Origin: Kutzneria viridogrisea
GTDB lineage: Bacteria; Actinomycetota; Actinomycetes; Mycobacteriales; Pseudonocardiaceae
DNA: 64,000 nucleotides
Reading direction: 5' to 3'
Assembly (NCBI GenBank): GCA_014138725.1
Contig: JACJID010000001.1
Location: 558,001-622,000 of the forward strand
The translations under genes were made by a program, and so were the position numbers. This document shows, piece after piece, positions 23,319-54,262 of this stretch. The stretch's first letter is position 1; every line of letters starts with the position of its first letter. Below the pieces are notes generated by a model that was given only the letters and a program-made list of their open reading frames with translations, did not search any database and was not told where the DNA came from.

Positions 23319-23328
23319 CATCCGGTGC

Positions 23329-26871: not shown

Positions 26872-27777
26872 CTACCCGACCGTCGCTGCCTGCGCGATCA
26901 GGCTGGTGCACAGGACCACCACGAAGCCCACTGCGGTGCCCTTGGGCCAGTTCAGCCGACCAGGGCGCTTTCCCCAGTAGCCCCACGCCCCGGCCAGTGG
27001 GAACACCGCGGCAAGACAGGGCAGCAGCGCCTCGAGGAGCGCGCCGCCATCGCGCAGCCGCGGCACGACCAGCGCGAGGTCCAGCCCGATCGCGACGAGC
27101 GCGAGCAGCAGGGTCCACGCCCCGCTTCCGTGCACACCGAGCACCTGCGGGTACAGGCGTTCTGACTGCTCACCCTGCCGGGTTTTCCGTGCGAGTTCGA
27201 AGTGGACGAACACGCAGGCGTACAACACCAACATCCAGGCCAGGTCACCGTTGAGGCGGATGGCACCTGTGCCGGACAAGGACAGGCACAGGTAGGTGTT
27301 GAGCAGTGCCTGGATGGGCAGTGCGGCGACCAGGTTGAGCAGGATGTCCTCGCGTACCAAGGGGAACACGGTCTCCGCGGCCCACAGGACCAGTCCGTAC
27401 GCCAGCACGACCAGCACGGCGCCCGCCGAGAGCGGGGACACCACGGCGTTGAGCGCCAGCAACACGACGGCGATCACCGCCATGGCCGCCCGCAGCTCCC
27501 GTGCGGTGATCGCGCCGATGACCAGCGGTCGGTCCGGGTTGTGCAGCACGTCGTAGTCGAAGTCCTTCTGCTCGTCCAGCATGCGCATGAACAGCAGTGC
27601 CAACACGACGGTCACCACGCGCACCAGGGTCGCCAACGAGGGCGACCACGCGCCGGAGCCGGCCAGCAGCACGGCCATGCCCTCGAAGGAGACAGTCCAC
27701 AGTAGACCGTAGGTCAGGTGGGTCCCAGGGGGGAACATCACCACGACGAATCGGGCCAGCCTGCTCATCGAGTTCAC
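26872..27777 (-). CDS. UbiA-family membrane transferase of the butyrolactone-phosphate operon
   Basis: This protein of about 301 residues has eight or so transmembrane helices, such as LVRVVTVVLALLFMRMLDEQ, MAVIAVVLLALNAVV, AGAVLVVLAYGLVLWA and LLLALVAIGLDLALVV. The first Asp-rich motif is DEQKDFDYD. The second active-site region is HFELARKTRQGEQSERLYPQ, which fits the ELARK...Y pattern of UbiA relatives. UbiA enzymes transfer prenyl or other pyrophosphate-activated groups at the membrane. Here the donor may be a nucleotide-activated alkyl phosphate rather than a prenyl diphosphate; that is inference from the operon. GTG 27777 overlaps the upstream TGA (GTGA); ATG 27768 is the alternative start. 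It is the last of eight coupled genes. Confidence 0.75.
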   Translation of the reverse strand: MNSMSRLARFVVVMFPPGTHLTYGLLWTVSFEGMAVLLAGSGAWSPSLATLVRVVTVVLALLFMRMLDEQKDFDYDVLHNPDRPLVIGAITARELRAAMAVIAVVLLALNAVVSPLSAGAVLVVLAYGLVLWAAETVFPLVREDILLNLVAALPIQALLNTYLCLSLSGTGAIRLNGDLAWMLVLYACVFVHFELARKTRQGEQSERLYPQVLGVHGSGAWTLLLALVAIGLDLALVVPRLRDGGALLEALLPCLAAVFPLAGAWGYWGKRPGRLNWPKGTAVGFVVVLCTSLIAQAATVG

Positions 27778-28394
27778 CAACAATCCCACCGCCACGTGTT
27801 GCGGGCGACCACCTCGGCCACCGGGTTGCGAGGTGCCCGCGAGGGCGGCACGGCCAGGTGGCCGACGACGACCAGCGCCACCTGGGTCACGCGCTCGAAC
27901 GGGATGCCCAGCAGTTGGGCCACTTCGCGTTCGTAGGCCAGGTGCACCGTGGTCATGGCGGTGCCCAGTCCCCGACTCCGGGCGGCCAGCATGAAGCCCC
28001 ACAGGGCCGGGTACACCGAGCCGTAGAAGCTGGACAGCTTCGCGGGCGGCGCGTCCGCGGCCACCCGCCCCAGCTGGCAGGCCAGCAGCAGAACAGGGGC
28101 CTGGTGCAGCCGGTCGGCCAACGCGCTGGCCGACCGGCCCATGGGTCCCTCCGCCGCCCCGCTGCGCGCCAGGTACTCGCGTGAGGCCAGCCGGTAGTAC
28201 CCGGCGACCTCCGCCTTCACGGCGGGGTCGTCGAGCACCAGGAACCGCCAGTCCTGGCGGTTGGCGCCGTTCGGCGCGTGGCAGGCGAGTTCGAGGCACT
28301 GCTCGATCAGCTCGACATCCACCGGCCGGTCGAAGTCGAGGCCGCGCCGCACGGTGCGAGTCGTGGTCAGCACCTGGTCCAGGTACTCGTTCAC
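27774..28394 (-). CDS. Nitroreductase-family flavoprotein
   Basis: This 206-residue FMN-dependent oxidoreductase has the family opening TTTRTVRRGLDFDRPVD, the FMN-binding ACHAPNGANRQDWRF (S/A-P-x-x-x-N-x-Q-x-W), and C-terminal SRGLGTAMTTVHL with the Gly-rich loop. The start is GTG 28394, overlapping the stop of the AfsA-type gene (GTGA); the stop overlaps the UbiA-family start. Enzymes of this group reduce enones, quinones or nitro groups with NAD(P)H. In this operon the most likely task is reduction of the butenolide double bond, the step performed by BprA-type reductases in A-factor-like pathways. That assignment is inference. Confidence 0.78.
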   Translation of the reverse strand: MNEYLDQVLTTTRTVRRGLDFDRPVDVELIEQCLELACHAPNGANRQDWRFLVLDDPAVKAEVAGYYRLASREYLARSGAAEGPMGRSASALADRLHQAPVLLLACQLGRVAADAPPAKLSSFYGSVYPALWGFMLAARSRGLGTAMTTVHLAYEREVAQLLGIPFERVTQVALVVVGHLAVPPSRAPRNPVAEVVARNTWRWDCW

Positions 28395-29392
28395 CGGGAA
28401 GCGACCAGCGCCATCGGCGTGATCTCCGAACCAGTGCCGTCGGCGGTGTCGGGAACGCGCACGAGGCCCACCTCGGCCTCCAGCACAGTGCGACCGGCCT
28501 GGACCACCCGCACCGGTACCCGCACCCCGTCCTGGTCGCCGTCCTGCGGCTCGGGCAGGTCGGTGACGCAGTGCGTGGGCAGGTCGAACTCGGCGAACTC
28601 GCGGAACCGTGCCGACAGCCGGTCCAGCCGCCAGCCCGGGCCCAGCGAGGCCAACGCGAGCTGGCGGCACGCCTCCACCTCCAGCATGCCGGGCAGGTGG
28701 TCGAGCGGGTGGTCGAACAGGCTGGGGTGGGTGGTGTCGGCGATCAGCGCCGCGCGATGCCCGCCCCGATCGTCCCGCACTGGCCGGGAGATCACCACGT
28801 TCAGCGGCACCCGGCGGTTGACCAGTTCCGCCGGGGCCCGTCGCGCCGCCGGGCACGCGGTGGGCCTCGCGCCGAGCCCAAGATCCTCCCTCGACCTGGT
28901 GCGCAGCGCGTCGTGCTCCCGCGCGGTGATCCAGGAGGCGCTGAGCTCGCACTCGACGGCGACACGGCCGTCGATCACCACCTGGTAGCCCACCCGCATC
29001 CCGGTCAGCGCCCGGTCGCGGTTGCGGAACTGCCGCTGCACGCGCACGTGCAGCACCGCCTCGGTGGGCGTCTCGCCGATGGCCAGCAGGTCGGAGTCGA
29101 CCACCCGCACGGCCACGTCGCGCAGGATGAAGTTGCGGTCCAGCGGCACGTCGTGGAACAGGTGCACGACCACGTAGGTCGACTGGCGGCACGCCTCCAG
29201 GAAGAACATCGGGTCGTAGCGCCCGGTGGTGTGCAACGCATCGCCGTACATGCCGTGGTGGCGCGGCACCTGCACCCCGATCCGGTACTCGCCCTCAGCC
29301 GCCGCCACGGCGCCGGTCACGAACACCTCGGCGACCGCGACCCGGTGCACAAGGGCCTTGTCCATGGTGCGGGAGAAGTCCATCTTCGTCAT
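28391..29392 (-). CDS. AfsA/ScbA-family gamma-butyrolactone (butenolide) synthase
   Basis: The protein has 333 residues with two hotdog repeats, as in AfsA. Repeat 1 (about 12-160) has VHRVAVAEVFVTG, QVPRHHGMYGD and YDPMFFLEACRQS. Repeat 2 (about 190-320) has THPSLFDHPLDHLPGMLEVE followed by ACRQLAL. These Glu/Arg-containing motifs are the hallmark of the family, which condenses a beta-ketoacyl-ACP with dihydroxyacetone phosphate to make the phosphorylated butenolide precursor of A-factor-type hormones. No TetR-type receptor gene (ArpA/ScbR) is adjacent, which is unusual for a pure signalling locus. The gene sits in the middle of an operon of acyl-activation and phosphotransfer genes. The family call is firm; the product type is inferred. 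Confidence 0.9.
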   Translation of the reverse strand: MTKMDFSRTMDKALVHRVAVAEVFVTGAVAAAEGEYRIGVQVPRHHGMYGDALHTTGRYDPMFFLEACRQSTYVVVHLFHDVPLDRNFILRDVAVRVVDSDLLAIGETPTEAVLHVRVQRQFRNRDRALTGMRVGYQVVIDGRVAVECELSASWITAREHDALRTRSREDLGLGARPTACPAARRAPAELVNRRVPLNVVISRPVRDDRGGHRAALIADTTHPSLFDHPLDHLPGMLEVEACRQLALASLGPGWRLDRLSARFREFAEFDLPTHCVTDLPEPQDGDQDGVRVPVRVVQAGRTVLEAEVGLVRVPDTADGTGSEITPMALVASR

Positions 29393-29407
29393 CGTCCGTC
29401 CTTCCGG

Positions 29408-30382
29408 TCAGTGCCCGGCCACGATCGGGAGCCAGTCCGCCGCCGTCACCGCGGCGATCACCGGCTGGTAGGTCCTGTCCTTCATCGGGAACACGCTCGC
29501 CCCCACGACGGTGACGTCCCATGGGTCCAGCGCCAGCTCGTGCCGCCACGCCGCCGACAGCAGCTCGCGCAGCCCCTCCTCGCCCTGCGCGGCCAAGGCG
29601 TCGACCAGGTCGGCGCGGGCCGCCTCGTGCAGTCCGCCGCCGCGCGCCAGCCGCTGGGCCTCGGCCCGCAACCGGGTCGCGGCGGGCTCGAACCTCAGAT
29701 CACGAGCAGGCGCCGCTGCGTACAGCTCACCGGCCAGCGCACGGGCATGCTGTCCACTGTCCTCGCCGCGCAGCGCCCGCCGGAACACCTCGCCCCTGGC
29801 CGCGTAGTCCATGTGCACGCCGAGTTCCCTGACGACGTCGGCCGGTTCGTCGGCCGTGTGCACCAGGTTGAGCAGGAACGAGAACCTGCCCAGCTCGTAG
29901 CGCAGTTGCCCGGGTTGGCGGCGGTCGGGGTCGGTCGGCCCCTTCAGCTCGGTCAACAGGGTGGACACCGGCAGCGTCGAACCACCGTCCTTGCGGATCA
30001 CCAGCAGCAGGGAGGACACGGTGGCGGTGAACAGATCGGCGATCCTGCGCCGGTGAGCCGTGGCCAGGTTCCACTGGAAGTACCACAGCGAGCGCACCAC
30101 CGCCGGGGTCAGCGCCACCTTGCGCGCCGCGACCACGGTGAACCCGCTGCGCTCCAGCCAGTCCACTGTGGTCAGTAGCTGTCGCGCCACGACGGCGTCC
30201 GGCTTGAGCAGCAGCAGCCCGTGCCGGGACGCGAAGTCCGCCGGGTCGGGGGTCAGCTCGGCCAGCTGCGCCCACGACTCCTGGAAGAACGTGTCGGCGC
30301 CGAACAACTCGCGCTTGCGTTCGTTGCGGCTCAACGATTCCAGCAGTAGCGGCCCGTACCGGCCGCGAAGCTCCTCGTGCAT
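29408..30382 (-). CDS. Nucleoside-diphosphate-kinase-like protein with extra C-terminal domain
   Basis: This 324-residue protein contains an NDK-like fold at about residues 54-190. LLLLKPDAVVARQLL aligns with the TLxxIKPDAV strand (Lys60 binding phosphate), and LRYELGRFSFLLNLVHTADE aligns with the RNxxHGSD segment, keeping a His (His175) at the phosphoacceptor position. Normal NDKs are about 140 residues; here there is a 50-residue N-terminal extension and a helical C-terminal domain of about 130 residues with no recognised family. Its ATG overlaps the stop of the SDR gene (TGATG). Most likely it transfers or exchanges a phosphate on a nucleotide-activated intermediate of the pathway. A housekeeping NDK role is unlikely given its divergence and context. 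Confidence 0.7.
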   Translation of the reverse strand: MHEELRGRYGPLLLESLSRNERKRELFGADTFFQESWAQLAELTPDPADFASRHGLLLLKPDAVVARQLLTTVDWLERSGFTVVAARKVALTPAVVRSLWYFQWNLATAHRRRIADLFTATVSSLLLVIRKDGGSTLPVSTLLTELKGPTDPDRRQPGQLRYELGRFSFLLNLVHTADEPADVVRELGVHMDYAARGEVFRRALRGEDSGQHARALAGELYAAAPARDLRFEPAATRLRAEAQRLARGGGLHEAARADLVDALAAQGEEGLRELLSAAWRHELALDPWDVTVVGASVFPMKDRTYQPVIAAVTAADWLPIVAGH

Positions 30383-31464
30383 CAGTTCCCCCTGTTCCGC
30401 AGTTCCGCCAGGACCTGGTCCACCCCCGGTAGCGAGGCGCCGAGGTAGCCAGCCCGCAGCGCGTACTCCAGCAGCCTGCGCAGGAAGGCCTGCCCGGTCG
30501 CGGGCGGCTTCACCGGCATGAACCGCTCGGTTTCGGTGCGGTCGAAGGTGATCCGCCTGCGGAAGTAGCTCTCGTAGAGCTGGACCACCTTGTCGTAGTA
30601 GGCGCGCTCACCCTCGGGCAGCCGTTGCGGGTCGAACGCCGAGGGCGCGACGAACCTGGGCACGTGGAAGGAGGGGAACTCGGCGAGCACGTCGGAGAAA
30701 TCGCGCAGGCTCAGGCCACCGCCCACGGCGTGGAAGGTGCGGCCCTCCGCCTCGGTGAACCGATCGACCGTCTGTGCGACCACGTCCGCGACGTGGTCCA
30801 CGGGCACCAGGTCCAGCATGGCGTCGAAGTGGCCGGGCACCGAGCGCACCCTGCCCTGGGTGGTCAGCTTGAGCACCACGTAGATGTTCTTGAAGTCGCG
30901 CACCACCCCGGTTCGCGCCGCACCGACGACGATGCTCGGGCGCACCACGGCCACCGGGAGCCCGTCGGCGCCCGCCTTGCGCACAAGCGTCTCCGCGCGC
31001 AGCTTGCTCTCCTCGTAGTGGTTGCCCATCCGTTGGCCGAGGTCCAGCTCGCTCGCGGCGATGGTGCCCGACCGCTCACCGCAGACGTAGGCGGTGCCCA
31101 CGTGCACCAGGGGAGTGGACCGCTCGCGCGCCAGCTCGATGACGTGCTGGGTGCCCGCCACGTTCACCTGCTGGTACAGCTGTTCGGGGCGGCCGAAGTC
31201 GGTGATCGCCGCGCAGTGCACGATCCGGTCCACGCCACCGGCAAGATTCGTCCACTCAGGACGGTCCAGCCCGAGGTCGGGTCGGGTGACGTCGCCCTTG
31301 ATCAGGCGCAGCCTGCCCTCGGGCGCGTGCAGCGGACGGCCGTTGTTGCCGATCAGGTTCTCGACACGGTGCACAAGTGCGACCACCTCGTGCCCAGCGG
31401 ACAGCAGCCGGGCCACCACCTCGGAACCGACCAGTCCGGAGGCTCCAGTCACCAGCACGGTCAT
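30382..31464 (-). CDS. Extended SDR, thioester-reductase/fatty-acyl-reductase-like
   Basis: This 360-residue NAD(P)-binding protein has VTGASGLVGSEVV at the N-terminus (GxxGxxG at 7-13), a long linker with LIKGDVTRPDLGL, VDRIVHCAA, and the catalytic NHYEESKLRAE (Tyr-x3-Lys). The loop after the first strand and the KGDVT segment are typical of the thioester-reductase or Male-sterility group (NAD_binding_4), which reduces carrier-bound acyl groups to aldehydes or alcohols. ATG 31464 overlaps the TGA of the ACP gene (ATGA), implying that it acts on the acyl-ACP encoded next door. A reductive release giving a fatty alcohol would supply the alkyl chain of an alkyl phosphate; this is inference. Confidence 0.75.
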   Translation of the reverse strand: MTVLVTGASGLVGSEVVARLLSAGHEVVALVHRVENLIGNNGRPLHAPEGRLRLIKGDVTRPDLGLDRPEWTNLAGGVDRIVHCAAITDFGRPEQLYQQVNVAGTQHVIELARERSTPLVHVGTAYVCGERSGTIAASELDLGQRMGNHYEESKLRAETLVRKAGADGLPVAVVRPSIVVGAARTGVVRDFKNIYVVLKLTTQGRVRSVPGHFDAMLDLVPVDHVADVVAQTVDRFTEAEGRTFHAVGGGLSLRDFSDVLAEFPSFHVPRFVAPSAFDPQRLPEGERAYYDKVVQLYESYFRRRITFDRTETERFMPVKPPATGQAFLRRLLEYALRAGYLGASLPGVDQVLAELRNRGN

Positions 31465-31721
31465 CGCGTCTCCCCGAGCAGCGCGGCCACCAGGTCGACG
31501 ACGTCCCCGACCGTGGTCACCGTGGCCAGTTGGCTCTCCTCCAGCGCGGCCAGCCCGAAGTGCCGCTCCAGTGCGATGGACAGCTCGATCAGGCGGACCG
31601 AGTCGTAGGCGAGATCGGCGACCAGCCGGGTGTCCTCGGCCAACTCGTCGGCGGCCGTCGGGCTCGGCGCCATCGCGGCGACCACGGCGTGCACCTCGGC
31701 ACGGCAGTCGGTGTTGATCAT
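31461..31721 (-). CDS. Acyl carrier protein
   Basis: This 86-residue free-standing carrier protein has the phosphopantetheine attachment Ser41 in LAYDSVRLIEL. The helices are typical: a first helix with VHAVVAAM, an acidic helix 2, and a third region TVGDVVDLVAALL. The ATG has a strong AAGGGGGT ribosome site. It lies 11 bp after the acyl-AMP ligase fusion gene and overlaps the reductase gene. It should receive the fatty acyl group from the ligase and present it to the SDR, and possibly to the AfsA-type enzyme. Confidence 0.88.
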   Translation of the reverse strand: MINTDCRAEVHAVVAAMAPSPTAADELAEDTRLVADLAYDSVRLIELSIALERHFGLAALEESQLATVTTVGDVVDLVAALLGETR

Positions 31722-31732
31722 GTCGACCCCCT

Positions 31733-34700
31733 TCAGGCCACGTGCGGCTGACGGCCGCCACTGCTCAACAGGTCACGTGCCTCGTCGATGGGCAGGTCCG
31801 CGTCCAGGTAGGCGCCCAGCCGCAGCCAGTCGTAGCCGATCGCCAGCGTCTGCTCCCACGCCTGGACGGAGTCGAAGGAGGACGGGAACACCAGCGAGCC
31901 GGTTGCCGTGCGAGTCAGCTCGACCAGGCGCTCCAGTTCGGCGAGCACCTGTCGCGCCCGCTGCGCGCTGTCCAGCACCGAGGTGTCGATCGCCGCGGCC
32001 AGCGCGCGGATCGGCTCGACCTCCTCGGGCAGCAGCCGCAGCCCGCGCACCACCTCGGAGTCCGGCGGTAGCGGGTTGACCCCGTACGCGCTGAGCAGGC
32101 CCCGCGCGCAGACCAGCACCACCCGGTGAGCCGAGAGCTGGGCGACCCGCCACTGGCCGCGGGCGACCGCGCCGGACAGGTCCTCGATCACGTTCTCGAT
32201 CAGCACGTTGGACCACATCAGGTTCATCGCGGCGGCGCCGAACCTGGTCGCGGGCAAGGGAACCAGCTCCACCGCGCGCTCGTCGGCCACCTCGGCGCCC
32301 TGCAAGCGCACCGAAGGACGCACCCGGCTGGGCGGCGGGCTGATCGGCCCGGCGGGCGCGCCGAGCGGCAACGCGGGACAGACCGTGCCGCCACCACGCC
32401 ACGCCAGCCGGATCAGGCCCAGCCGCAGGAAGTCGGCCACCAGCTCACCGGGTTCGTCCACCCCGTGGGCGGCGGCGAGGGTATCCGGCAGCGATCGACC
32501 GAACACGATCGACCGCCACAGCCGCCCGGCGGCCGAGCCCAACGCGAACACGTCCCGCTTGTCCCGCACCACGTGCACGCGGTCCCCGGTCTGCCAGGTG
32601 GTGACCCCGGCGACCCGTTCGACGCTGAGCTGACCGACCCCGCCGGTGCAGCCGGAGACGCCGAGGTCGGCGACCAGCCGCACGCAGTCGTCCAGGTACC
32701 GCTGGCCACTGCCCGCACTGGCCAGCGCCCAGTACCGGGCCGCCACCTGCTCGTCACCGATCCGCTCCAACTGCATGGACAGCCACTTGGGCTCCAGGTA
32801 GGTCTCACCCCGGCCCGCCGCCCACGCCTTGACCGCCTGGACCAGCGCCGACCGCGCCCACGCCGCGGCCTCCTCGTGCTGCCCGAGCGCGCCGAGCGCG
32901 ACGGCCTGCCGTGCCGACTGCCGCGCGTAGTGCGACCACCAGCGGGTCATCACACCGGCGAACTCCGCGGCAGGCAACATCTCCTTCACCCTGGCCACCA
33001 GCTCATCGCCGCGCAGCACGTGGCTGCCGAGCAGGCGCTGGCACCGGTTGAGCAGGTCCTCGTGTAGCGCCGAGACCCTGCGCCCCGCCTTGGCGCGCAG
33101 CTGCGCGAACTGGGCCGCGATCTGGCCGGTGGTGCGGGTGCGCACCTCGACCCTGCGGCCGTCGACGAACAGGATCGACGGCATGGTGGGCAGTTCGCCG
33201 TCCTCCTCGACGATCAGCAGGAAGTCGATGTCCGACGAGGGGTTTCCGAAGCCCTCGGCGATCGAGCCCTCCAGCACCACCGCCCAGTCGGGCGCGGCCC
33301 CCACCTGCTCCAGCGTCTGCTCGGTGATCCGCTGCAACTGGTCCTCGGACAGGATCATCCGCCCGCCTCTCCCTTCTCGTTCCGGTGCCAGCACGCGCGC
33401 CCCGTCGGGCAGCCCGCTGCCCAGCAGTGCGCTCAGCAGCGCGCGCCGGGGCTTGCCGCTGGTGGTGCGGGCGATCAGCCCACTGCGCCCGCTGATCACG
33501 GTGACCGCGACGTCCTGGCCCAGGCGTGCGGCCAACGCCCTGCGGGCCGTCTCCACCCACGCGCCCGGTGCGGACTCGGCCAGCAGCGCGACCCGAGCCC
33601 CGCCCGCGGTCGGCGCGCTGACCACCGCGAACCTGTTGTGCGCCAAGCCCGTCTCCTGGGCGACCGCTGCCTCCAGGTCCTCCACGTACACGCTGCGCCC
33701 GCGCACCTTGAGGCTGTCGCCCATGCGGCCGAGCACGAACAGTTCGCCGCCGTACTGGAAACCGGCGTCCCCGGTGCGCAACTCGGCGCCCGCGAACCGG
33801 GTGGAGCCCCCGGCGCGGCCCGCGTGGTAACCGTCCACAACGGACGGTCCGGTCACCGCGATCTCCCCGAGGTGGCCCTCGGGCAGCCGCCTGCCCTCCT
33901 CGTCCAGAATCCGCACTGTGAAGCCGTTCCTCGGCTGACCGCACCCGACCACCCAGCCGGCGCGCTCGGTGGGCTGGGCCTCACCGAGGCGGTACCACTG
34001 CTTGATGTTCACCGGCTTGCCCGCGCGCAGCGTGGCCACGTCGGGGCGCACCGCGTGGGGCGCCTGCTCGCCGCAGTGCGCCGTCACCGCCAAGGTGGCC
34101 TCGGCCAGTCCGTACGCGGTGCGGTACGCGTTGCGGCGGAACCCGGCCCGTTCGGTCAGCCGCGCGAAGTTCTCCAGCACCACCGGGTCGATCAGCTCGG
34201 CGCCCACGATCAGGTTGCGCCAGCCCGACAGGTCCAGCTCCGCCAGCTGCTCGGGGCGCACCCGGCGCGCCAGGTAGTCCAGCGCGAACGGCGGCGCGGC
34301 CGTGTGCCGGGCGAAGGCCATGCACTCCAGCCACCGCAACGGTTCGCGGATGAACTGGCTTGGTCGCATCAGCCACAGGTCGCACTGCGCGGTGACCGGC
34401 GTGAGCAGGCAGCCGATCAGGCCCATGTCGTGGTACAGCGGCAGCCACGAGGCGGTGACGTCGCCGTCCGACCAGTCCAGCCAGTCCTTGATCAGCGCGA
34501 TGTTGGCCGCCAGGTTGGCCCAGGTGACCCGGGCGCCGCGTGGGGCGCCGCTGGACCCGGAGGTGAACTGCAACAGGGCCAGTTCCCCCGGCGCGACCTG
34601 AGCCGCCTCGGTGTCGGCCTCGCGCAGCGGCCACGGCGCGTCGTCCAGCCCGGCCTCGGCCATGGCCCGCGCGGTCACCGGGGCCAGCTCCGGCGAGGTG

Positions 34701-35038
34701 ACCGTGAGCCGGGGCGCTGCCTGTGCCAGCACGGCGGCGACGTGCGCGGCGTAGTCCTGCTCGGCGGTGAACGCGGGCGGGCTGATCAGGCACGGCGTCG
34801 CACCGGCCACCCACACCCCGAAGAAGGCGGCCAGCGCCTCGAACCCGGTCGGCATGAGCACGCACACCACGTCCCCGGCCCGCACACCCTCGGCGATCAG
34901 CGCGGCGGCCACGCGTCGCGCCGAGCGGGCGATCCGCGGGTACTCGCGCAGCTCCCACTCGTCGGCGCCACCGGCGATCCGCACACCCCGGCCCGCTCGC
35001 GGCGCGCTCAGCCAGCCGAGCAGCTCCTGGGCGGTCAC
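31733..35038 (-). CDS. Fusion protein: fatty-acyl-AMP ligase + MNT-type nucleotidyltransferase + PqqD-like + helical domain
   Basis: The protein has 1101 residues. Residues 1-555 are a FAAL-type adenylation domain: FTSGSSGAPRGARVTW (P-loop), WLPLYHDMGLIG, TAYGLAEATL, and a GDS...VRGRSVYVEDLE hinge. Residues about 570-800 contain a nucleotidyltransferase core, LEGSIAEGFGNPSSDIDFLL, with the GS and D-x-D metal motif near 601-603. Residues about 815-890 read VHVVRDKRDVFALGSAAGRL and then a GRSLPDTL helix, like PqqD or other RiPP-recognition winged helices. The last about 180 residues are helical and unrecognised. The start is GTG 35038, overlapping the preceding stop (GTGA). The FAAL should load the ACP encoded 11 bp later. 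The NTase may make a nucleotide-alkyl-phosphate. Fusion of these activities is unusual. Confidence 0.8.
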   Translation of the reverse strand: MTAQELLGWLSAPRAGRGVRIAGGADEWELREYPRIARSARRVAAALIAEGVRAGDVVCVLMPTGFEALAAFFGVWVAGATPCLISPPAFTAEQDYAAHVAAVLAQAAPRLTVTSPELAPVTARAMAEAGLDDAPWPLREADTEAAQVAPGELALLQFTSGSSGAPRGARVTWANLAANIALIKDWLDWSDGDVTASWLPLYHDMGLIGCLLTPVTAQCDLWLMRPSQFIREPLRWLECMAFARHTAAPPFALDYLARRVRPEQLAELDLSGWRNLIVGAELIDPVVLENFARLTERAGFRRNAYRTAYGLAEATLAVTAHCGEQAPHAVRPDVATLRAGKPVNIKQWYRLGEAQPTERAGWVVGCGQPRNGFTVRILDEEGRRLPEGHLGEIAVTGPSVVDGYHAGRAGGSTRFAGAELRTGDAGFQYGGELFVLGRMGDSLKVRGRSVYVEDLEAAVAQETGLAHNRFAVVSAPTAGGARVALLAESAPGAWVETARRALAARLGQDVAVTVISGRSGLIARTTSGKPRRALLSALLGSGLPDGARVLAPEREGRGGRMILSEDQLQRITEQTLEQVGAAPDWAVVLEGSIAEGFGNPSSDIDFLLIVEEDGELPTMPSILFVDGRRVEVRTRTTGQIAAQFAQLRAKAGRRVSALHEDLLNRCQRLLGSHVLRGDELVARVKEMLPAAEFAGVMTRWWSHYARQSARQAVALGALGQHEEAAAWARSALVQAVKAWAAGRGETYLEPKWLSMQLERIGDEQVAARYWALASAGSGQRYLDDCVRLVADLGVSGCTGGVGQLSVERVAGVTTWQTGDRVHVVRDKRDVFALGSAAGRLWRSIVFGRSLPDTLAAAHGVDEPGELVADFLRLGLIRLAWRGGGTVCPALPLGAPAGPISPPPSRVRPSVRLQGAEVADERAVELVPLPATRFGAAAMNLMWSNVLIENVIEDLSGAVARGQWRVAQLSAHRVVLVCARGLLSAYGVNPLPPDSEVVRGLRLLPEEVEPIRALAAAIDTSVLDSAQRARQVLAELERLVELTRTATGSLVFPSSFDSVQAWEQTLAIGYDWLRLGAYLDADLPIDEARDLLSSGGRQPHVA

Positions 35039-37725
35039 GGAACCGGCTCCTGTTCGCGGTCCTCGCTCAGCACGAGCACTTCCCCGGTGGAGCCGTCGAT
35101 GCGCACCCGCATCCCGGTGCGCAGTTCCCGGGTGATGTCCTTGATCTGCACCACCGTGGGCACCCGCAGCTCCCTGGCCACGATGGCCACGTGGGTCAGC
35201 GGGCTGCCGCGTTCGATGACCAATCCCGCCGCCGAGGCCAGCGAGGCGACCCAGCCGGGATCGGTGCGGTAGGCGACCAGGATGCCGCCGTTGACCTGCT
35301 CGGGCCTGGTGGTCACCACGGCATCACCCTCGGCGACGCCGGGGCAGGACGGCGTGCCCCGGAAGTGCTTGCGGCCCTCGCGGGTGTCGCTGTCGGCGAC
35401 CCAACCGCCCACCGGGAGATTGCCGTTCCAGTAGGCGGCTCCCCTCGTGGTGAACCGGGATGGTGCGCGAAGCAGTTCGTCGGCCTCGCGGCGCCGCTTG
35501 CGCATGGCCACCAGTTCCGGCAACTCGTTGTGCGCGATGGTGCCCTCGAACGCGCCGCGCACCTCCTCGATGCGCAGCTGGAACACGTCGCTCCACTCCC
35601 GGATCGCGCCCATGGCCGCCAGGTCCCGGCCCATCGCGCGCAACATGCGCTTGGCCGAGCCGAAGGCGCGGGTACGGCAGAACCGCAGCCGTTCCCTGGC
35701 CGCCAGGCTGGCGCGCGTCTTGCGGCGCACCACCTCGTAGACCCATCTGCGCGGCCCGCGCAGGTGCGCGTCCAGGTACTCCTGCGCGGTGTCCGGCGAC
35801 TTGCCCGTGCTCTCCGGCAGCGCGTCGCGCAGCATCGTGAACAGCATGGCCGGGTCCTCGCGCAGGTCGGGCACCTCCAGCTTGAGTTCGTCCGGGCTGC
35901 GGTAGCCGTACTTGGCCACGTAGTCGTCCACCGCGGCGAGCAGTCGGTCGTACCCGGCCTCGTGCAGCGCCTGCCTGGTCCGCTCCGCGGGCGTGCTCGT
36001 GATCAGCGCGGTCAGCGCGGGGTCGGCGCGCACGGTGTCGGCCAGCGCGGACAGCGCCAGCGCGGGCTCGGCCGACTCGATGCCGGCACCGGGGTTGACC
36101 ACCGCCCAGTTGAACCACTCCGGCGCGTCGGGCAGCCATTTCCTGGTCAACAGGTACAGCGCGCCGAAGGACAACAGGATGGTGGCGTCCAGCGCCATCA
36201 TCGGGCCCCACTTCTCCAGCAGGTCCCGTTCCAGCTCGCGGAATCGCCGATACGTCTCCGCGCCCGGCCTGCCGTCGTAGTCCTCGTTGTCGAAAACCTC
36301 GTAGGCCCGGTAGAACTCGGCGACGAACCGGTCGACCGAACGGCCCATGGTCAGGAACCTGCGGGCGAATTCCACGTGCCGGACGACGCCTGACAGCCGA
36401 CGGCCCAAGGTGGTGCGGAACGTGAAGGGGTACAACGTGTCGGCCAACTCGGGGGACAATGTCTCCTCGACCCCGAGTGAGACTTCCAGAACCCGCCGGG
36501 TCAACGGGTAGGCCGGTGCCAGCCGGACCATTCGGTACCAGTGCAGCAGGTTGTAGTAGACCCTGCCGTGGAAGTACCCGAGCATCGACGGCAGCCAGTC
36601 GTCCATTTGACGCAACTGCGCGTCGGGCACCCGGAGAGCGCGGGCGTAACCGCGGTAGACCTTGGCGTAGGCGTCGGCGGCGAACGAATAGGTCAGTGGT
36701 GAGGTGATGCCGCTGAAGCTCTCGATGATGTTGGAGTTGTCCCAGACGCGCAGCTCGCCGGTCGCGGGCGCGGCCTGCTCCTCGACCGGCCCCCGCGCCG
36801 TCGCGGTGACCGGCCTGCTCTGCAACAGCCACAGCCGCCGGTCGGCGCCGATGGCCCACTCGATGTCCTGCGCCGCGCCGAACACCTCCTCGACGCGGAC
36901 GCCCAGTTCGCGCAACCCGGCCAGGTCCCGCGCGTCCAGCGACAGCCGTGCCCGCTGCTCCTCGGGCACCTCGCGGATCGAGTTGCCCGCCTGGCCGTCG
37001 GCGTCCATCCGCTGCGCCTTGTCCCCGAGGACGGTGTCCACCACCTCACCGGTGTCCTTGCGCAGCACGACGGTGTCGGCGTCGACCATGCCGGACACCA
37101 GCGACTCGCCCAGCCCGTACACCGAACTGACCACGCACTCCCGCTGATCACCGGTGAGCGGGTTGACCGTGAACAGCACCCCGCTCAGCTCGGCGTCGAC
37201 CATGCGCTGCACGACGACGGCCATGTCACCGACCTGGGCGACCCCACCGTTGGCCAGCCGGTAGGACAGCGACCTCGGGCTGAACGCCGAGGCCCAGCAG
37301 GCCAGCACCGCCTCGCGCACCGCGGCCGATCCGCACACGTTGAGCCTCGTGGTGAACTGGCCGGCGAAGGACAGGGCGGTGCCGTCCTCGTCGAGATTCG
37401 AGGAGCGCACCGCGACCCGACCGCCGCCGACCGTGCGGTACGCCCGCTCGATCTCGGCCTCGATCTCGAAATCCAGACACGTACCGAATATGAGTTCGGA
37501 AATTGAGTCGGCGATCTGGTCGACCGTGTTATTAGTGACACGGCCGAGCAGTTCGTGTACGTTTTCCCGTAGGCCGCCGATGTCGAGCAGGCGGGCGAAC
37601 AGGTCCGAACCCAGTACCACCCAGTCCGGCACTGAAAGGCCGTTTCCGGTGAGTACGTGCAGGCTACGGCCCTTGCCGCCGGCCAGGCGTTCGACCTGGT
37701 CGGCACTGCTTTGAGGTGTGATCAC
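35035..37725 (-). CDS. PEP-synthase-like/rifampin-phosphotransferase-like dikinase, first gene of the operon
   Basis: The protein has 896 residues. The N-terminal ATP-binding domain (about 10-320) has LAGGKGRSLHVL, AVRSSNLDEDGTALSFAGQF, VVQRMVDAELSGVLFTVNP and AQDIEWAIG. A long central region (about 330-780) is unlike the PEP/pyruvate TIM barrel. The C-terminal swivelling domain has GVAEGDAV and SPLTHVAIVARELRVPTVVQ, with the phosphorylated His845. This three-part plan, without the pyruvate barrel, matches rifampin phosphotransferase-type enzymes, which put the beta-phosphate of ATP on an alcohol. A plausible acceptor here is the fatty alcohol made by the SDR. GTG 37725 is preferred, as GGAAAGAG lies about 6 nt upstream. 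The only alternative, TTG 37752, is weaker. Confidence 0.8.
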   Translation of the reverse strand: MITPQSSADQVERLAGGKGRSLHVLTGNGLSVPDWVVLGSDLFARLLDIGGLRENVHELLGRVTNNTVDQIADSISELIFGTCLDFEIEAEIERAYRTVGGGRVAVRSSNLDEDGTALSFAGQFTTRLNVCGSAAVREAVLACWASAFSPRSLSYRLANGGVAQVGDMAVVVQRMVDAELSGVLFTVNPLTGDQRECVVSSVYGLGESLVSGMVDADTVVLRKDTGEVVDTVLGDKAQRMDADGQAGNSIREVPEEQRARLSLDARDLAGLRELGVRVEEVFGAAQDIEWAIGADRRLWLLQSRPVTATARGPVEEQAAPATGELRVWDNSNIIESFSGITSPLTYSFAADAYAKVYRGYARALRVPDAQLRQMDDWLPSMLGYFHGRVYYNLLHWYRMVRLAPAYPLTRRVLEVSLGVEETLSPELADTLYPFTFRTTLGRRLSGVVRHVEFARRFLTMGRSVDRFVAEFYRAYEVFDNEDYDGRPGAETYRRFRELERDLLEKWGPMMALDATILLSFGALYLLTRKWLPDAPEWFNWAVVNPGAGIESAEPALALSALADTVRADPALTALITSTPAERTRQALHEAGYDRLLAAVDDYVAKYGYRSPDELKLEVPDLREDPAMLFTMLRDALPESTGKSPDTAQEYLDAHLRGPRRWVYEVVRRKTRASLAARERLRFCRTRAFGSAKRMLRAMGRDLAAMGAIREWSDVFQLRIEEVRGAFEGTIAHNELPELVAMRKRRREADELLRAPSRFTTRGAAYWNGNLPVGGWVADSDTREGRKHFRGTPSCPGVAEGDAVVTTRPEQVNGGILVAYRTDPGWVASLASAAGLVIERGSPLTHVAIVARELRVPTVVQIKDITRELRTGMRVRIDGSTGEVLVLSEDREQEPVP

Positions 37726-37916
37726 GGCAGCTCTTTCCGGCCGGGTAAGCAAATTCGTGCCGGGAATCTTCCACGTGGCCCTCTAGGGAAAACACTAGTG
37801 CTCATACCGCTGTTTCGACGGTAAGACTGGAAGGGCGTCCGGCCGTGGATTGCCGTCTGGCCGGATCGCAATACCGCCACGACGGCAAATCCATTCCGAG
37901 GTCAGGTGGGGTCGCC
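37726..37916. promoter_or_regulatory. Divergent promoter region with two inverted repeats
   Basis: This 191-bp region separates the butyrolactone-type operon from the glycosyltransferase operon. It contains TACCG-9nt-CGGTA (37805-37823) and TTGCCGTC (37850-37857) paired with GACGGCAA (37881-37888). The AACACTAGTGCT word (about 37791-37802) is also nearly palindromic. Any of these may be an operator; no regulator gene is adjacent. Confidence 0.45.
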
Positions 37917-39191
37917 ATGCGGGTTGTGATCGTGGCCGTGGGGACGCGTGGTGACGTCGCCCCCTACACCGGACTGGCCGCGCGGTTCGCCCAGGAGGGG
38001 CACGAGGTCGCCATCGCCGCGTACCGGCCCTTCGCCGAGCTGGTCACCTCGGCCGGCGCCGAGTTCGTCGCCCTGCCTGGCGACCCGCGGTCGGCCACCT
38101 CGTGGACCCAGGTCCAGCACGGTTCCAAGATCGGCACCGGACCGCTCGGGCTGGCCAGGCTGATGCGGATGATGACCGAGGAGATGGTGGAGCTGGCCGA
38201 GGCGATCCGGCTGGCCGCCTGCGAGCGCGCCGACGTGCTGCTGCTGTCCATGCCCGCGACGCTGGGCTACCACGTCGCCGAGCACCTCGGCCTGCCCAGC
38301 ATGGGCGTCTTCCTGCAACCGGCGTTCCCGACCGCGGAGCACCCGCCCTCCCTGCTGGGGTTCGGCCGCTCGCTGGGCGGGCTGGGCAACCGGCTGGCAG
38401 GCCACCTCGTACTCGGCTCGATGGGCGCGATCTTCGCCCGCGCCATCAAGGCCGTGCGGGCACGGCTCGACCTGCCCGCGCTCAGCCCGGCCGAGCTGAC
38501 CAGGGCGATGTCGGCGTGGCCGGTGCAGCACGGCTACAGCCCGACCCTGTTGCCGCGACCCCGCGACTGGCGGCAGGGCCTGGACGTCGCCGGCTTCCTG
38601 TGGCCCGCGCCCGACCCCGCGTGGCGGCCACCGCGTGAGCTGCTCGAGTTCCTTGATGACGGACCGCCCCCGGTGTACGTGGGCTTCGGCAGCCGGGTGT
38701 TCGGCGACGCGCCACGCCTGAGCCGACTCGTCGACGAGGCGCTGGCCGCGGCGGGGGTGCGCGGGGTGATCCAGGCCGGTTGGGCGGACCTGCGCGCGAG
38801 GTCGACGCGGTCGATCACCATCGGCGAGGCACCGCACTCGTGGCTGTTCCCCAGGATGGGCGCGCTGTTGCACCACGCCGGCGCGGGCACCAGCGCGGCA
38901 GGGCTGCTGGCCGGTCGCCCGACGGTGTCGGTGCCCGTGCTGGCCGACCAGCCGTTCTGGGCCTCCCGGCTGACGATGCTCGGGGTGGGCCCCAAACCGG
39001 TGCCGCACCGCAAGCTCACCGCCGAGCGGCTGGCCGGGGCGATCCGGGCCGCGATCGGGCACCAGCCCTACCGCGAACGGGCACTGGAGCTGTCGGCCAG
39101 GTTGCGCGCCGAGGACGGTGCGGGACAGGTCGTCGCCGCGGTGGAACGGCTCGTGCGGACCGCGGCGGCCGACCCGAGGAGGCAGTCGTGA
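37917..39191 (+). CDS. GT1-family glycosyltransferase (UGT/sterol-glucosyltransferase-like)
   Basis: This is a 424-residue GT-B glycosyltransferase. The N-terminal acceptor domain begins RVVIVAVGTRGDVAPYTGLA, with the conserved GTRGDV loop. The C-terminal donor domain has VYVGFGSRVF, then the nucleotide-sugar site HHAGAGTSAAGLLAGRP (about 318-334) and VPVLADQPFWASRL. Family members move sugars from UDP/TDP donors to hydroxyls of macrolides, glycopeptides, sterols or lipids. ATG 37917 has GGTGGGG just upstream; the frame extends further left but without a ribosome site. The next gene, a P450, overlaps by GTGA. No deoxysugar genes are in the window, so a common nucleotide sugar is the likely donor. 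The acceptor is unknown. Confidence 0.85.
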   Translation: MRVVIVAVGTRGDVAPYTGLAARFAQEGHEVAIAAYRPFAELVTSAGAEFVALPGDPRSATSWTQVQHGSKIGTGPLGLARLMRMMTEEMVELAEAIRLAACERADVLLLSMPATLGYHVAEHLGLPSMGVFLQPAFPTAEHPPSLLGFGRSLGGLGNRLAGHLVLGSMGAIFARAIKAVRARLDLPALSPAELTRAMSAWPVQHGYSPTLLPRPRDWRQGLDVAGFLWPAPDPAWRPPRELLEFLDDGPPPVYVGFGSRVFGDAPRLSRLVDEALAAAGVRGVIQAGWADLRARSTRSITIGEAPHSWLFPRMGALLHHAGAGTSAAGLLAGRPTVSVPVLADQPFWASRLTMLGVGPKPVPHRKLTAERLAGAIRAAIGHQPYRERALELSARLRAEDGAGQVVAAVERLVRTAAADPRRQS

Positions 39192-40492
39192 ACCCGTTGC
39201 GGGAACTGAAGATCGGCCTCACCACGCTGGCCATGCGCTCGGTGGTGCGCGGACTGGCCCTGACCGGTGACCCGGTGGCCACCGTACTGGGCCGCAGGGC
39301 GCTGGCCGACCCGTATCCGCACTACGAGCGGATCAGGGCGCGCGGTGAGGTCAGCAGGCACGTCATCGGGCTGTACCTGACGGCGGGGCACGGCACCGGC
39401 AAGGCGGTGCTGCGCGACCCCAGGTTCGGCGTCGAACCCGCCGTCGACCACGGCGGCGTGGACTGGAACCGCGAACCCGGCGACGAGTACCGGCTGGTCC
39501 ACCCGATGGAGCAGTCCATCCTCACCATGAACCCGCCCGGCCACACCAGGCTGCGGCACCTGGTCTCCCCGTGGTTCACCCCGTCGGCACTGCGCGAGTT
39601 CACGCCCCAGGTGCACCGCATCGTCGAGGAGGCGCTGGACGCGGTGTCCGCGCGGGCCCGGTTCGACCTGGTGGCGGAGTTCGCCGCGCGGGTGCCGATC
39701 CAGGTGATCAGCGCGCTGTTCGACATCCCCGCCGCCGACCAGGTCCGCTTCGCGCGCTGGGGCAGCGTGCTGACCGGCACCCTGGACGGCATCCGCACGA
39801 TGGCCGAGCGCAGGGCCGTGCACCGCACGGTGTCGGAGATGACCGAGTTCCTCACCGACCTGCTCGCCCGCCGCCGCACCGGTGCGGGCACCGACATGAT
39901 CAGCAAGCTGGCCCGCTCCGAGCTGGGTGAGTCCAGCCAGGGCGTGCGCGAGTTGGTCGCGCTGATCGGCCTGCTGCTGGTCGCCGGGTTCGAGACCACG
40001 ATCAACGTCATCGGCAGCGGGGCGCTGCGGTTGATGCGTGACACCGAGCTGCGCACCGCACTGCTGGACGAGCCCGAACTGGCCGCCCCGATCGTGGAGG
40101 AGATCATGCGGCTGGAGCCGCCGGTGCAGTTCACCCTGCGCAAGGCACTCGAGCCGGTGACGGTGGCCGGACAGGACCTGGCCGAGGGCGCCATGCTGGT
40201 GGTGCTGATCGCCGGGGCCAACCGCGACCCCTCGGCTTTCCCGGACCCCACGCGCTTCGACCCGTTGCGTGCCAACGTCCGAGACCACCTCGCCTTCTCC
40301 AGCGGCGTGCACTACTGCCTCGGTGCCGGTCTGGCCAGGATCACCGCGGCGGCCGCACTGCGCGGGCTGTTCCAGCGCATGCCGGGACTGGGGCAGGCGG
40401 GACCCGCCCGCTACAAGCAGACCCGCAACATCCGTGGCTGCTCGACCATTCCCGTTCAGCACACGGGAACCAGGATTTCCCTTGGGGGGTAA
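39188..40492 (+). CDS. Cytochrome P450
   Basis: This 434-residue P450 has the I-helix motif VAGFETTINVI (conserved acid-Thr pair present), ExxR in EEIMRLEPP and the heme loop FSSGVHYCLGAGLAR. An N-terminal extension of about 30 residues (NPLRELKIGLTTLAMRSVVR) precedes the usual DPYPHYERIRARG. The start is GTG 39188, whose TGA overlap (GTGA) with the glycosyltransferase stop indicates translational coupling. The C-proximal half ends 10 bp before the NRPS gene. It probably hydroxylates the peptide or amino-acid product of the adjacent NRPS, or its glycosylated form; the substrate cannot be read from sequence. Confidence 0.88.
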   Translation: MNPLRELKIGLTTLAMRSVVRGLALTGDPVATVLGRRALADPYPHYERIRARGEVSRHVIGLYLTAGHGTGKAVLRDPRFGVEPAVDHGGVDWNREPGDEYRLVHPMEQSILTMNPPGHTRLRHLVSPWFTPSALREFTPQVHRIVEEALDAVSARARFDLVAEFAARVPIQVISALFDIPAADQVRFARWGSVLTGTLDGIRTMAERRAVHRTVSEMTEFLTDLLARRRTGAGTDMISKLARSELGESSQGVRELVALIGLLLVAGFETTINVIGSGALRLMRDTELRTALLDEPELAAPIVEEIMRLEPPVQFTLRKALEPVTVAGQDLAEGAMLVVLIAGANRDPSAFPDPTRFDPLRANVRDHLAFSSGVHYCLGAGLARITAAAALRGLFQRMPGLGQAGPARYKQTRNIRGCSTIPVQHTGTRISLGG

Positions 40493-40502
40493 GGACACCG
40501 CC

Positions 40503-43500: not shown

Positions 43501-43517
43501 CCAGTGCGGTTCGATGA
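40503..43517 (+). CDS. Nonribosomal peptide synthetase, C-A-PCP
   Basis: This single-module NRPS has 1004 residues. The condensation-like domain (1-420) has the active-site FRAHHAVTDGAGM at about residue 132 (HHxxxDG). The adenylation domain (430-890) has YVIYTSGSTGRPKG, NAYGPTEAAIAC, YRTGDLGR and PNGKIDVN. The PCP (about 915-1000) has LGGTSTAMIKM with the phosphopantetheine Ser. The specificity residues, read by eye as D-W-N-S-V-C-A-I-A, match no code I recall, so the amino acid is not assigned; Asp235 argues for an alpha-amino acid. There is no thioesterase or epimerase. A GGGGGG ribosome-like run lies 10-16 nt upstream. The C domain at the N-terminus implies that it accepts an acyl or peptidyl group from another carrier. 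Confidence 0.88.
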   Translation: MTTIAIAGGEATDFARPLAQTDKLGFLIQPPRMSIIVTTFVEGVGRIDPERLTEAVAVAARACPGMRLALTSEEPVWRDTGLAPRVRVVEAARFDFEQFADEPNIREGLVEEGGPTCEVVLIEGTDSTVLFRAHHAVTDGAGMRTWIQEVFRALRGEQPLGATDPRNIDELLASLPKPACEEEPAPETPIPSVLPRPSELTPRRHFWLRRTVPGNHPAVVAKIAAALTAASGLDQGGFWIPVDLRRHLPELRTTAGLAKVITLRTGRGEDWTQVQDRLLALLAENYDLVDHFDYGPLAEYSLAEIRDFLDTREEESIQIAERDYGGSAALSHLGRFELAELSTESFEATTVYGLPSLGYASMPLFDIAECDGRTEIVATWYDGPGMVERLGELLDDIAESLAPAAHQRWVGNDTHRALPPTPTLTALFAERVARTPDALALDGPQGPMTYAELDRRAESVAAVLRGTGVRPDTVVGILADRSPAAVTAIWGVLKAGAAFLALDPRNPDSRLGELLADAGARICLAARADAHRVPGVEVIVLDSVPTSDAPAPADAVRPGDLAYVIYTSGSTGRPKGVQIEHHSIVNYSLWAARAYGFDDTTRIPLIAPMSFDWAYNTLFPPMLAGSTVVLVPEEPDHVVLRRMLTESGANAASLTPVHLDILSTMDLELSGYRFVVSCGEPLPTSVAERAQALFGPDCRVVNAYGPTEAAIACTATVYRGESGPGNLSIGLPGDNTRVFLLDGHRRAVPPGEVGEIYLAGEQLARGYHGRADLTRDRFVRLADGTRAYRTGDLGRLLPDGRLACLGRVDRQIKVNGFRVEPDEVARTLERHPAVRSAVVTGVRRGERGKVLCGYAVTEADPAELRAFLADLLPAHMVPVSITPLAELPVSPNGKIDVNALPDPFATAAPAGGARATDDTEAAIGAIWAKVLGVDGAAIAGDSEFTQLGGTSTAMIKMVAEVCAEVVGAGGEREFMRRLPEVIGNPTLAAVCSLARSARRPSAVR

Positions 43518-44718: not shown

Positions 44719-44720
44719 CC

Positions 44721-45935: not shown

Positions 45936-45950
45936 CCGTCCACTGAGGAT

Positions 45951-45991
45951 CGTGATGAGGGGAGCAGCCCGGGGCTGCTCCCCTCATCACG
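45951..45991. terminator. Strong bidirectional terminator between convergent biosynthetic groups
   Basis: A perfect 19-bp stem, CGTGATGAGGGGAGCAGCC (45951-45969) and GGCTGCTCCCCTCATCACG (45973-45991), has a 3-nt loop. It ends exactly at the stop codon of the minus-strand glycosyltransferase-methyltransferase gene (45992) and serves both directions. Confidence 0.85.
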
Positions 45992-48049: not shown

Positions 48050-48166
48050 ACTCGCGCCACGAATCGATGCGCCGGTGACCTGGTGTGTGCTCCCAATGAA
48101 TTCCCTAGTCCTTTGTCGGCAGGGGGAGTTCTCGTCAGCTTGTCGCGTGTGGAATCGAAGTTCCTT

Positions 48167-48196
48167 ATCAGTACAGGGATCCCTCGGTGTACTGAT
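48167..48196. promoter_or_regulatory. Operator-like inverted repeat between megasynthase and GT-MT genes
   Basis: A perfect 9-bp inverted repeat, ATCAGTACA (48167-48175) and TGTACTGAT (48188-48196), has a 12-nt spacer. It lies in the 210-bp gap upstream of the GT-MT gene. The shape and spacing suit a dimeric repressor site, implying that the GT-MT gene has its own regulated promoter. Confidence 0.5.
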
Positions 48197-48259
48197 TACG
48201 GGCAGCATCGGTTCCCTTGCCGGATGTCCTATGTGGTGGGCTTGCGCAGTCGTTGCTGA

Positions 48260-54262
<6,003 letters not shown>

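Follow-up and report, generated by a model that had tools for sequence, protein, structure and literature searches.

A Kutzneria viridogrisea operon related to Salinispora spt and its predicted lipid-phosphate butyrolactone product

The operon and its divergent neighbours

We analyzed a 64,000-nucleotide stretch of the Kutzneria viridogrisea genome (contig JACJID010000001.1, positions 558,001 to 622,000), hereafter the window. A minus-strand run of eight genes, A to H, lies at positions 26872-37725 (Table 1). The operon is real: all eight genes were present at the coordinates given by the initial annotation, and each of its family assignments was backed by profile searches. Its description of almost every junction as overlapping was slightly too strong. 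Four of the seven junctions do overlap (A-B GTGA, C-D ATGA, D-E TGATG and F-G GTGA), whereas B-C and E-F are separated by 11 bp and 15 bp, and G-H shows either a gap of 8 bp, if H starts at ATG 27765, or a GTGA overlap, if it starts at the in-frame GTG 27777. The same gene set recurs in other genera with its order nearly unchanged, and the operon is thus more than a chance arrangement; in Kutzneria sp. CA-103260 the order of the eight genes is identical and the proteins share 71-86% identity.

The boundaries first drawn around the locus proved too narrow: the cluster also takes in the divergent neighbours, out to about 48.2 kb, and DNA synteny with a sister Kutzneria covers positions 26483-48013. 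Inspection of the binding pocket of the NRPS module by eye yielded no substrate assignment. The PKS-NRPS gene at 48260-54262 was rejected as a cluster member because nothing in the sister species matched it at length on the DNA level, apart from one 312-bp piece (69.6%) in the opposite orientation; its best protein match among 7 Kutzneria genomes was 45%.

Table 1. Features of the operon and its neighbours (window coordinates)
Feature	Position	Strand	Evidence or remark
H, UbiA-like membrane transferase	26872..27777	-	UbiA, under cut-off; start GTG 27777 or ATG 27765
G, nitroreductase-family flavoenzyme	27774..28394	-	Nitroreductase PF00881
F, AfsA/ScbA-type butenolide phosphate synthase	28391..29392	-	AfsA profile and NF041195
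E, NDK-fold protein with C-terminal extension	29408..30382	-	NDK profile
D, SDR of thioester/acyl-reductase type	30382..31464	-	NAD_binding_4 / thioester-reductase profile
C, acyl carrier protein	31461..31721	-	PP-binding
B, FAAL and nucleotidyltransferase fusion	31733..35038	-	AMP-binding (FAAL type), then nucleotidyltransferase-like domain
A, dikinase-type phosphotransferase (ATP-grasp and phospho-His domain)	35035..37725	-	PPDK_N and PEP-utilizers mobile domain
Intergenic region, operon / divergent gene set	37726..37907		Probable promoters, from gene layout
Glycosyltransferase (GT28 N / EryCIII-like C)	37908..39191	+	Rhodococcus rhodnii L068 homologue in same place, 53%
Cytochrome P450 a	39176..40492	+	Start approximate
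NRPS module (HHxxxDG in a weak condensation-like N-terminus; adenylation; carrier)	40485..43517	+	Start approximate
Amidohydrolase, prolidase-like	43504..44718	+	Adjoins spt-type operons in 14/87 loci (including best 80 of 119 relatives)
Cytochrome P450 b	44655..45935	+	Start approximate
Glycosyltransferase (MGT, TIGR01426) and methyltransferase (LCM/TIGR00027) fusion	45992..48208	-	Profiles

Protein families and comparison with Salinispora spt

Conservation was followed in a set of 87 loci, made up of the best 80 of 119 relatives together with L045, L048, L050, L051, L147, L148 and L149; duplicates of named loci (L043, L044, L046, L047, L049 and L150) and matches to the NDK-like gene only (L052-L057) were excluded. 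In dikinase A only PF01326 and PF00391 were found. The absence of the PEP/pyruvate-binding C-terminal barrel (PF02896), which a separate dikinase at 12309-14993 of the window carries, led us to reject a plain PEP synthase reading. A passed profile NF004881, named PEP synthase (1079 vs a cut-off of 883), and scored far under the cut-offs of RIF_Ptrans_rph (286 vs 999), RedH (356 vs 1350) and PigC (305 vs 1300). Its closest solved relatives, 5fbs and 5hv1-3, were deposited as PEP synthases, and we take them to be the Listeria rifampin phosphotransferase; this enzyme and the RedH/PigC ligases share both Pfam domains of A and are its best solved or profile relatives. The His loop of A orthologues showed one motif in 82/87 loci and a variant form in 4 more. 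The C-terminal domain of B scored 20.8 bits against NTP_transf_2, just below the Pfam cut-off of 21, and the nucleotidyltransferase (NTase) motif was kept in 88/88 rows of this set, which includes the best 80 of 119 relatives; no relatives of the NTase were found on plasmids.

In E, residues K60, R161, N172 and H175 were invariant in all 48 aligned sequences. Across the wider set, again with the best 80 of 119 relatives, the KPD motif was present in 79/79 and the histidine region in 78/79, the sole miss being a truncated locus. H reached 27.9 bits against Pfam UbiA (cut-off 34.2). In its family alignment (33 aligned) R61, D64, D68, R193 and K194 were invariant and D72 nearly so; the first Asp motif is kept, with an invariant RK further along, and no second Asp-rich motif was observed.

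Alignment and gene-order comparison bore out the proposal that the operon is related to Salinispora spt. Seven of nine functions (dikinase, FAAL, NTase, ACP, SDR, NDK-like and UbiA-like) were shared at 36-61% identity, each time within one operon of about 11 kb and in a common order except for the UbiA gene; A was 54-55% identical to the product of the first spt gene and D 59-61% identical to the spt SDR. In the Salinispora-type loci L092, L093 and L148 the genes run dikinase, FAAL, NTase, ACP, SDR, NDK, UbiA, luciferase-like and AfsA. In L093 the operon has nine genes over 5617-16774 (11.16 kb), and this locus is anchored by its agreement in gene count and length with S. tropica spt, which a published table (PMC7888443) lists as RS20900-RS20940, nine locus tags over 11.1 kb.

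The lactone side of the operon did not show the equivalence to spt that the initial annotation had suggested. F lies outside the clade of the Salinispora AfsA (Spt9), to which it is 28-30% identical, and a common clade of all spt-linked AfsAs was rejected (AU p 0.0147; 36 spt-linked vs 7 other AfsAs) in a test whose group was defined after a first tree and in which long branches were flagged. Two L191 fragments, and AfsA sites for which no locus had been retrieved, were excluded from this tree. Likewise, Kutzneria has nitroreductase G (PF00881) where Salinispora has, at the Spt8 position, a luciferase-like enzyme (PF00296, L093). Furthermore, the Kutzneria AfsA gene comes ahead of those for the reductase and the UbiA-like protein, the fused FAAL and NTase are two separate genes in Salinispora and Kutzneria CA-103260, and the Kutzneria cluster has extra neighbours out to 48.2 kb. 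Since F and G are not of the Spt9 and Spt8 lineages, the product may differ from salinipostins. Spt-like clusters outside Salinispora were reportedly described by Creamer et al. in 2021, and the window operon is probably of the kind counted there and by Kudo et al. in 2020.

Relatives with and without a butyrolactone synthase

Within the 87-locus set (best 80 of 119 relatives plus seven), NTase and SDR genes were found in all 87 loci, the dikinase gene in 86 and the UbiA gene in 84; L091, L119 and L125 are truncated at the ends of their loci, and L099 has no UbiA gene. The window operon, with dikinase, NTase and SDR genes together and a UbiA-like gene nearby, is of spt type in this wider sense. 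FAAL and ACP were both missing from 26/87 loci, and neither flavoenzyme was found with the seeds used in 20 of the 77 AfsA loci; relatives can thus do without the FAAL part of B (B1), C and G. The NDK-like gene accompanied AfsA in 77/77 loci. In the same set, eight complete loci carried the dikinase-NTase-reductase core without AfsA, on two branches of a tree that used 44 of 88 rows, and in six of these eight genomes AfsA was absent genome-wide. All eight also lacked the NDK-like gene, and seven had thymidylate-kinase-like genes instead, a count that rests on seeds TMKa or TMKc, found in each. This kinase swap amounts to two independent events, too few pairs for significance (sign test p 0.5). 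In the Lentzea, Plantactinospora and Antrihabitans/Gordonia types, thymidylate-kinase-like enzymes were combined with either P450/methyltransferase or ketosynthase/condensation-type genes; an AfsA-less operon of Lentzea waywayandensis (L105) lies at about 5.2-12.3 kb of its locus.

Because the lactone-building genes differ from those of spt and some related operons lack them, these patterns suggest shared lipid-phosphate machinery fitted to different target molecules. The best reading of the gene content is a chassis for lipid-phosphate transfer whose acceptor genes can be exchanged and which in this operon would make a butyrolactone. A broader proposal, to which we give slightly less than an even chance, is that actinobacteria share a general machine for lipid-phosphate transfer, of which the salinipostin operon is one instance and whose acceptor genes and partner kinase are swapped as units. 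The chassis would then consist of dikinase, nucleotidyltransferase, acyl reductase and UbiA-like transferase, and the exchange units would be AfsA, nitroreductase and NDK in Kutzneria, AfsA, luciferase-like enzyme and NDK in Salinispora, and the combinations given above in the Lentzea, Plantactinospora and Antrihabitans/Gordonia types. If so, AfsA-less clusters would make lipid phosphate esters of non-butyrolactone molecules, of which no isolation was found in the limited literature searched, and the Kutzneria lactone would be joined to or modified by the NRPS module, P450s, glycosyltransferase and methyltransferase.

Natural phosphotriesters are rare and hit lipases and parasites; their bacterial biosynthesis is unsettled in the literature reached, and no paper on the enzymology of an spt-type pathway was found in the literature searched. 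In relatives that keep the genes for dikinase, nucleotidyltransferase, reductase and UbiA but have no butyrolactone synthase, the lipid-phosphate steps stand apart from those that build the lactone, so that each half can be tested alone. Moreover, the chassis idea, if right, would provide a search key for new lipid phosphate esters, and it might supply a set of enzymes that could be reused to make them.

Predicted pathway and alternative readings

We consider it likely that this is an spt-type cluster whose product is a gamma-butyrolactone bearing an O-alkyl phosphate ester and further tailored, probably in the form of a cyclic enol phosphotriester. Cyclophostin and the cyclipostins, Streptomyces bicyclic enol phosphates according to the accessible part of PMC6681047, are of this predicted product class; no gene cluster for them was found in the literature searched.

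The order of steps put forward in the initial annotation is plausible; the one proposed here is drawn wholly from protein families. A fatty acid would be loaded on the ACP by B1 and C and reduced by D to the fatty alcohol, which dikinase A would phosphorylate with ATP, much as rifampin phosphotransferase acts on a hydroxyl; the NTase domain (B2) would then activate the alkyl phosphate with a nucleotide. On the lactone side, F would condense a beta-ketoacyl thioester with dihydroxyacetone phosphate to a butenolide phosphate, G would reduce it and E, which has an NDK fold and keeps the active-site histidine, would act on the lactone-side phosphate, before H joins the two halves in the membrane. 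The balance moderately favours A-D as the lipid half in these roles, and the parts assigned to B2, E and H are each doubtful.

The same product class might instead arise with the phosphorus of dihydroxyacetone phosphate, retained on the AfsA product, which is possible but the less probable route. E would then add a second phosphate as activation, attack by the enol would close the ring, and H would transfer to a phosphate oxygen the alkyl group of an activated donor made by A and B2. This fits the strict pairing of the NDK-like gene with AfsA and its replacement by thymidylate-kinase-like genes in seven of the eight AfsA-less loci described above, the lack of any phosphatase gene in profile searches of the eight operon genes, and the only solved relative found for H, digeranylgeranylglyceryl phosphate synthase (E 2e-4). 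However, the kinase pattern reduces to the two non-significant events, and to our knowledge there is little precedent for a UbiA enzyme that alkylates from a donor whose alkyl group is saturated and non-allylic.

It is unlikely that the 26.5-48.2 kb region holds two unrelated clusters, an spt-type operon and an NRPS/glycosyltransferase cluster, co-inherited by chance. The NRPS module is well matched only in two Kutzneria loci (other tblastn scores <=141 bits), and most spt-type loci, among the best 80 of 119 relatives plus seven, have no such neighbours within the fetched flanks. Yet the methyltransferase part of the terminal fusion adjoins spt-type operons in the same 14/87 loci of that set as the amidohydrolase, both genes sit inside the operon in L096, and R. 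rhodnii L068 has a glycosyltransferase, both P450s, an amidohydrolase and a methyltransferase around its operon.

A free butyrolactone signal of the A-factor kind as the product of the operon, with the lipid-phosphate genes making a separate lipid, is quite improbable: F, the sole AfsA of the genome, does exceed the cut-off of the ScbA/BarX profile NF041195 (209.7 vs 200 bits), and spt itself reportedly yields both salinipostins and free butyrolactones (Kudo et al., in 2020), but the gene overlaps and the conservation of the operon point to a single pathway, and no ScbR-type receptor in the genome reached the curated cut-off. The genome-wide search for such a receptor gave 149 matches, the best at 72.8 vs 150 bits, with a profile that gives sub-cut-off background matches in 13/14 control genomes and could miss a divergent receptor; a canonical AfsA-ScbR signalling system is thus unsupported. 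The likeness to A-factor and ScbA-ScbR systems lies in the AfsA-family synthase, which in Kutzneria, unlike in those systems, is accompanied by no receptor over cut-off and sits in a lipid-phosphate operon.

An spt-type operon with divergent lactone genes

We found all eight minus-strand genes claimed by the initial annotation in the window, and profile searches agreed with the families assigned to their products, with the UbiA-like protein H and the nucleotidyltransferase (NTase) half of B scoring below Pfam cut-offs. Overlap at almost every junction was only partly confirmed: of the seven junctions, four have overlaps of 1 or 4 bases, and a fifth does so if H starts at GTG 27777, but the remaining two leave 11 and 15 bases between genes. 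FAAL and NTase run on as a single open frame at 33340-33420 of the window and are separate, overlapping frames in Kutzneria sp. CA-103260 (L043, about 10840-11030); of the 59 rows having both, 40 carry them in a common frame.

In three Salinispora-type loci (L092, S. cortesiana, and L093, S. oceanensis, both among the best 80 of 119 relatives, and L148) the gene order is dikinase, FAAL, NTase, ACP, SDR, NDK-like, UbiA-like, luciferase-like, AfsA. With nine genes in 11.16 kb, the L093 operon agrees with the published S. tropica spt entry, RS20900-RS20940 and 11.1 kb (PMC7888443). Alignment of the window proteins with those of the three loci gave identities of 54-55% for the dikinase, 49-50% for FAAL, 51-52% for NTase, 47-49% for ACP, 59-61% for the SDR, and 36-38% for both the NDK-like and UbiA-like proteins. 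At the sequence level the proposed resemblance to spt is real, but it did not extend to the lactone genes: AfsA shares only 28-30% identity and the nitroreductase has no match in these loci. Because of these two genes, we class the window operon as an spt variant, outside the spt cluster in the strict sense.

Operons of this kind have reportedly been described outside Salinispora, by Kudo in 2020 and Creamer in 2021. Scanning named genomes with an alignment built from the NTase portion of B, we confirmed 119 relatives and took on the best 80. At E 1e-20, NTase matches occurred in 9/397 genomes of the order and 6/394 of the class. Within the genus, 4/7 genomes had a match and CA-103260 had two; its L043 has an identical eight-gene order, with proteins at 71-86% identity. 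Further Kutzneria operons of the spt kind (L044, L045, L046) lack FAAL and ACP, and CA-103260 holds both types. No other operon genes were found near relatives of the NDK-like protein E (26-35% identity) in L052, L053, L054, L056 and L057.

Probable exchange of AfsA and its reductase

Gene presence was counted over 87 distinct loci (the best 80 of 119 relatives plus seven added). NTase and SDR occur in all 87 and the dikinase in 86, while FAAL and ACP are both present in 57 and both absent from 26. AfsA is present in 77 loci, every one of which has an NDK-like gene. With the seeds used, the reductase in these 77 was a nitroreductase in 50, luciferase-like in 7 and neither in 20; in all ten of those 20 that were measured, the AfsA-UbiA spacing is too small for a gene.

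A 44-row NTase + SDR tree placed the window and the luciferase-like Salinispora/Actinoplanes type in one supported 19-row set (SH-aLRT 96), and loci lacking AfsA on two separate branches (support 96 and 100); an earlier FastTree had the same outline. AfsA presence changed twice on this tree, with NDK changing in the same direction both times, too few events for significance (p 0.5). In the AfsA tree, the luciferase-linked and the other spt-linked group were each split off by a branch of support 99. Furthermore, a single clade of 36 spt-linked AfsAs versus 7 other AfsAs was rejected (p-AU 0.0147), a value that carries the caveats that the group was defined after an earlier AfsA tree had been seen and that the program flagged long branches. 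Set against each other, the two trees indicate that AfsA and its reductase were probably swapped as a pair, with the lipid half (genes A-D) retained.

Loci without AfsA

Ten of the 87 loci lack AfsA, two of them incomplete at the locus end (L091, L119). None of the eight complete loci, tabulated below, has an NDK-like gene; seven instead carry one or two thymidylate-kinase-like P-loop genes, and two such proteins checked directly exceeded the Pfam cut-off for PF02223. In L099 neither gene type was found, nor was UbiA. Whole-genome searches found no AfsA in six of the eight genomes, the absence being less sure for the Gordonia MAG, a possibly incomplete assembly of just 3.0 Mb. The N. mexicana genome has several AfsAs despite its AfsA-less locus, and the Rhodococcus MAG has a weak match (halves 35.5 and 34.3 bits). 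A literature search, mostly outside subscription journals, found no paper on the gene set of these AfsA-less loci.

L099 (5019-5034 and 2-7739) also holds a dikinase-type gene, a carrier protein and an opposite-strand 1540-aa open frame. Pfam showed a ketosynthase-carrier-thioesterase in L124 (1496-8167), and ABC-transporter-like genes were recognised by eye in L129 (12945-16174).

Features around the window operon and complete loci lacking AfsA
Feature	Location	Remark
Dikinase-type gene with PEP-binding C-terminal domain	12309-14993	contrasts with gene A
Sensor histidine kinase, then LuxR-type response regulator	22065-23982	
FxSxx-COOH system TPR protein	24020-26119	NF040586, 365 vs 300 bits; just outside conserved block
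PKS-NRPS hybrid (KS, condensation, adenylation, carrier, thioesterase)	48260-54262	adjoins cluster
AfsA-less locus	L098	Plantactinospora
AfsA-less locus	L099	Nocardia mexicana, second locus
AfsA-less locus	L101	Antrihabitans cavernicola
AfsA-less locus	L105, L107	Lentzea
AfsA-less locus	L124	MAG named Rhodococcus
AfsA-less locus	L129	MAG named Gordonia
AfsA-less locus	L147	same family as window

Proposed pathway and wider cluster

Sequence comparison showed that active-site motifs are retained in the operon proteins, and a profile search found no PEP-binding domain in dikinase A. H keeps R61, D64 and D68, with R193-K194 invariant; its only solved relative found was digeranylgeranylglyceryl phosphate synthase (E 2e-4). 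Solved relatives of the NTase were weak (DrrA, aminoglycoside adenylyltransferase), and talin-1 ranked top (E 0.0013), probably by chance. In the pathway we propose, a fatty acid would be loaded onto the ACP and reduced to an alcohol, which the dikinase would phosphorylate; the phosphorylated alcohol would undergo nucleotide activation, and the UbiA-like protein would link the lipid to the AfsA-derived lactone. The linkage of the NDK-like protein with AfsA points to an action of this protein on the phosphate of the lactone side, in which case the product's phosphorus could come from either ATP or dihydroxyacetone phosphate. The window's genome has one AfsA, and no ScbR-type receptor over cut-off was found in it.

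DNA synteny with CA-103260 covers 26483-26669, 26888-37738 (81.6%) and 37907-48013 (78.2%); in the 75 kb compared, the only other piece above 150 bases was one of 312 bases, and the PKS-NRPS hybrid had no long DNA match in this sister species. The neighbours beyond A that this adds to the cluster encode a glycosyltransferase, a P450, an NRPS module, an amidohydrolase, a second P450 and a fused glycosyltransferase-methyltransferase. In 14/87 loci, relatives of the amidohydrolase and of the methyltransferase part co-occur beside the operon; in L096 they sit between the UbiA and luciferase-like genes, and in R. rhodnii L068 they are joined by homologues of the first glycosyltransferase and of the two P450s. 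The CA-103260 homologues of these neighbours lie just beyond its named locus as taken and were found in L152, and CA-103260 alone gave a good match to the NRPS module.
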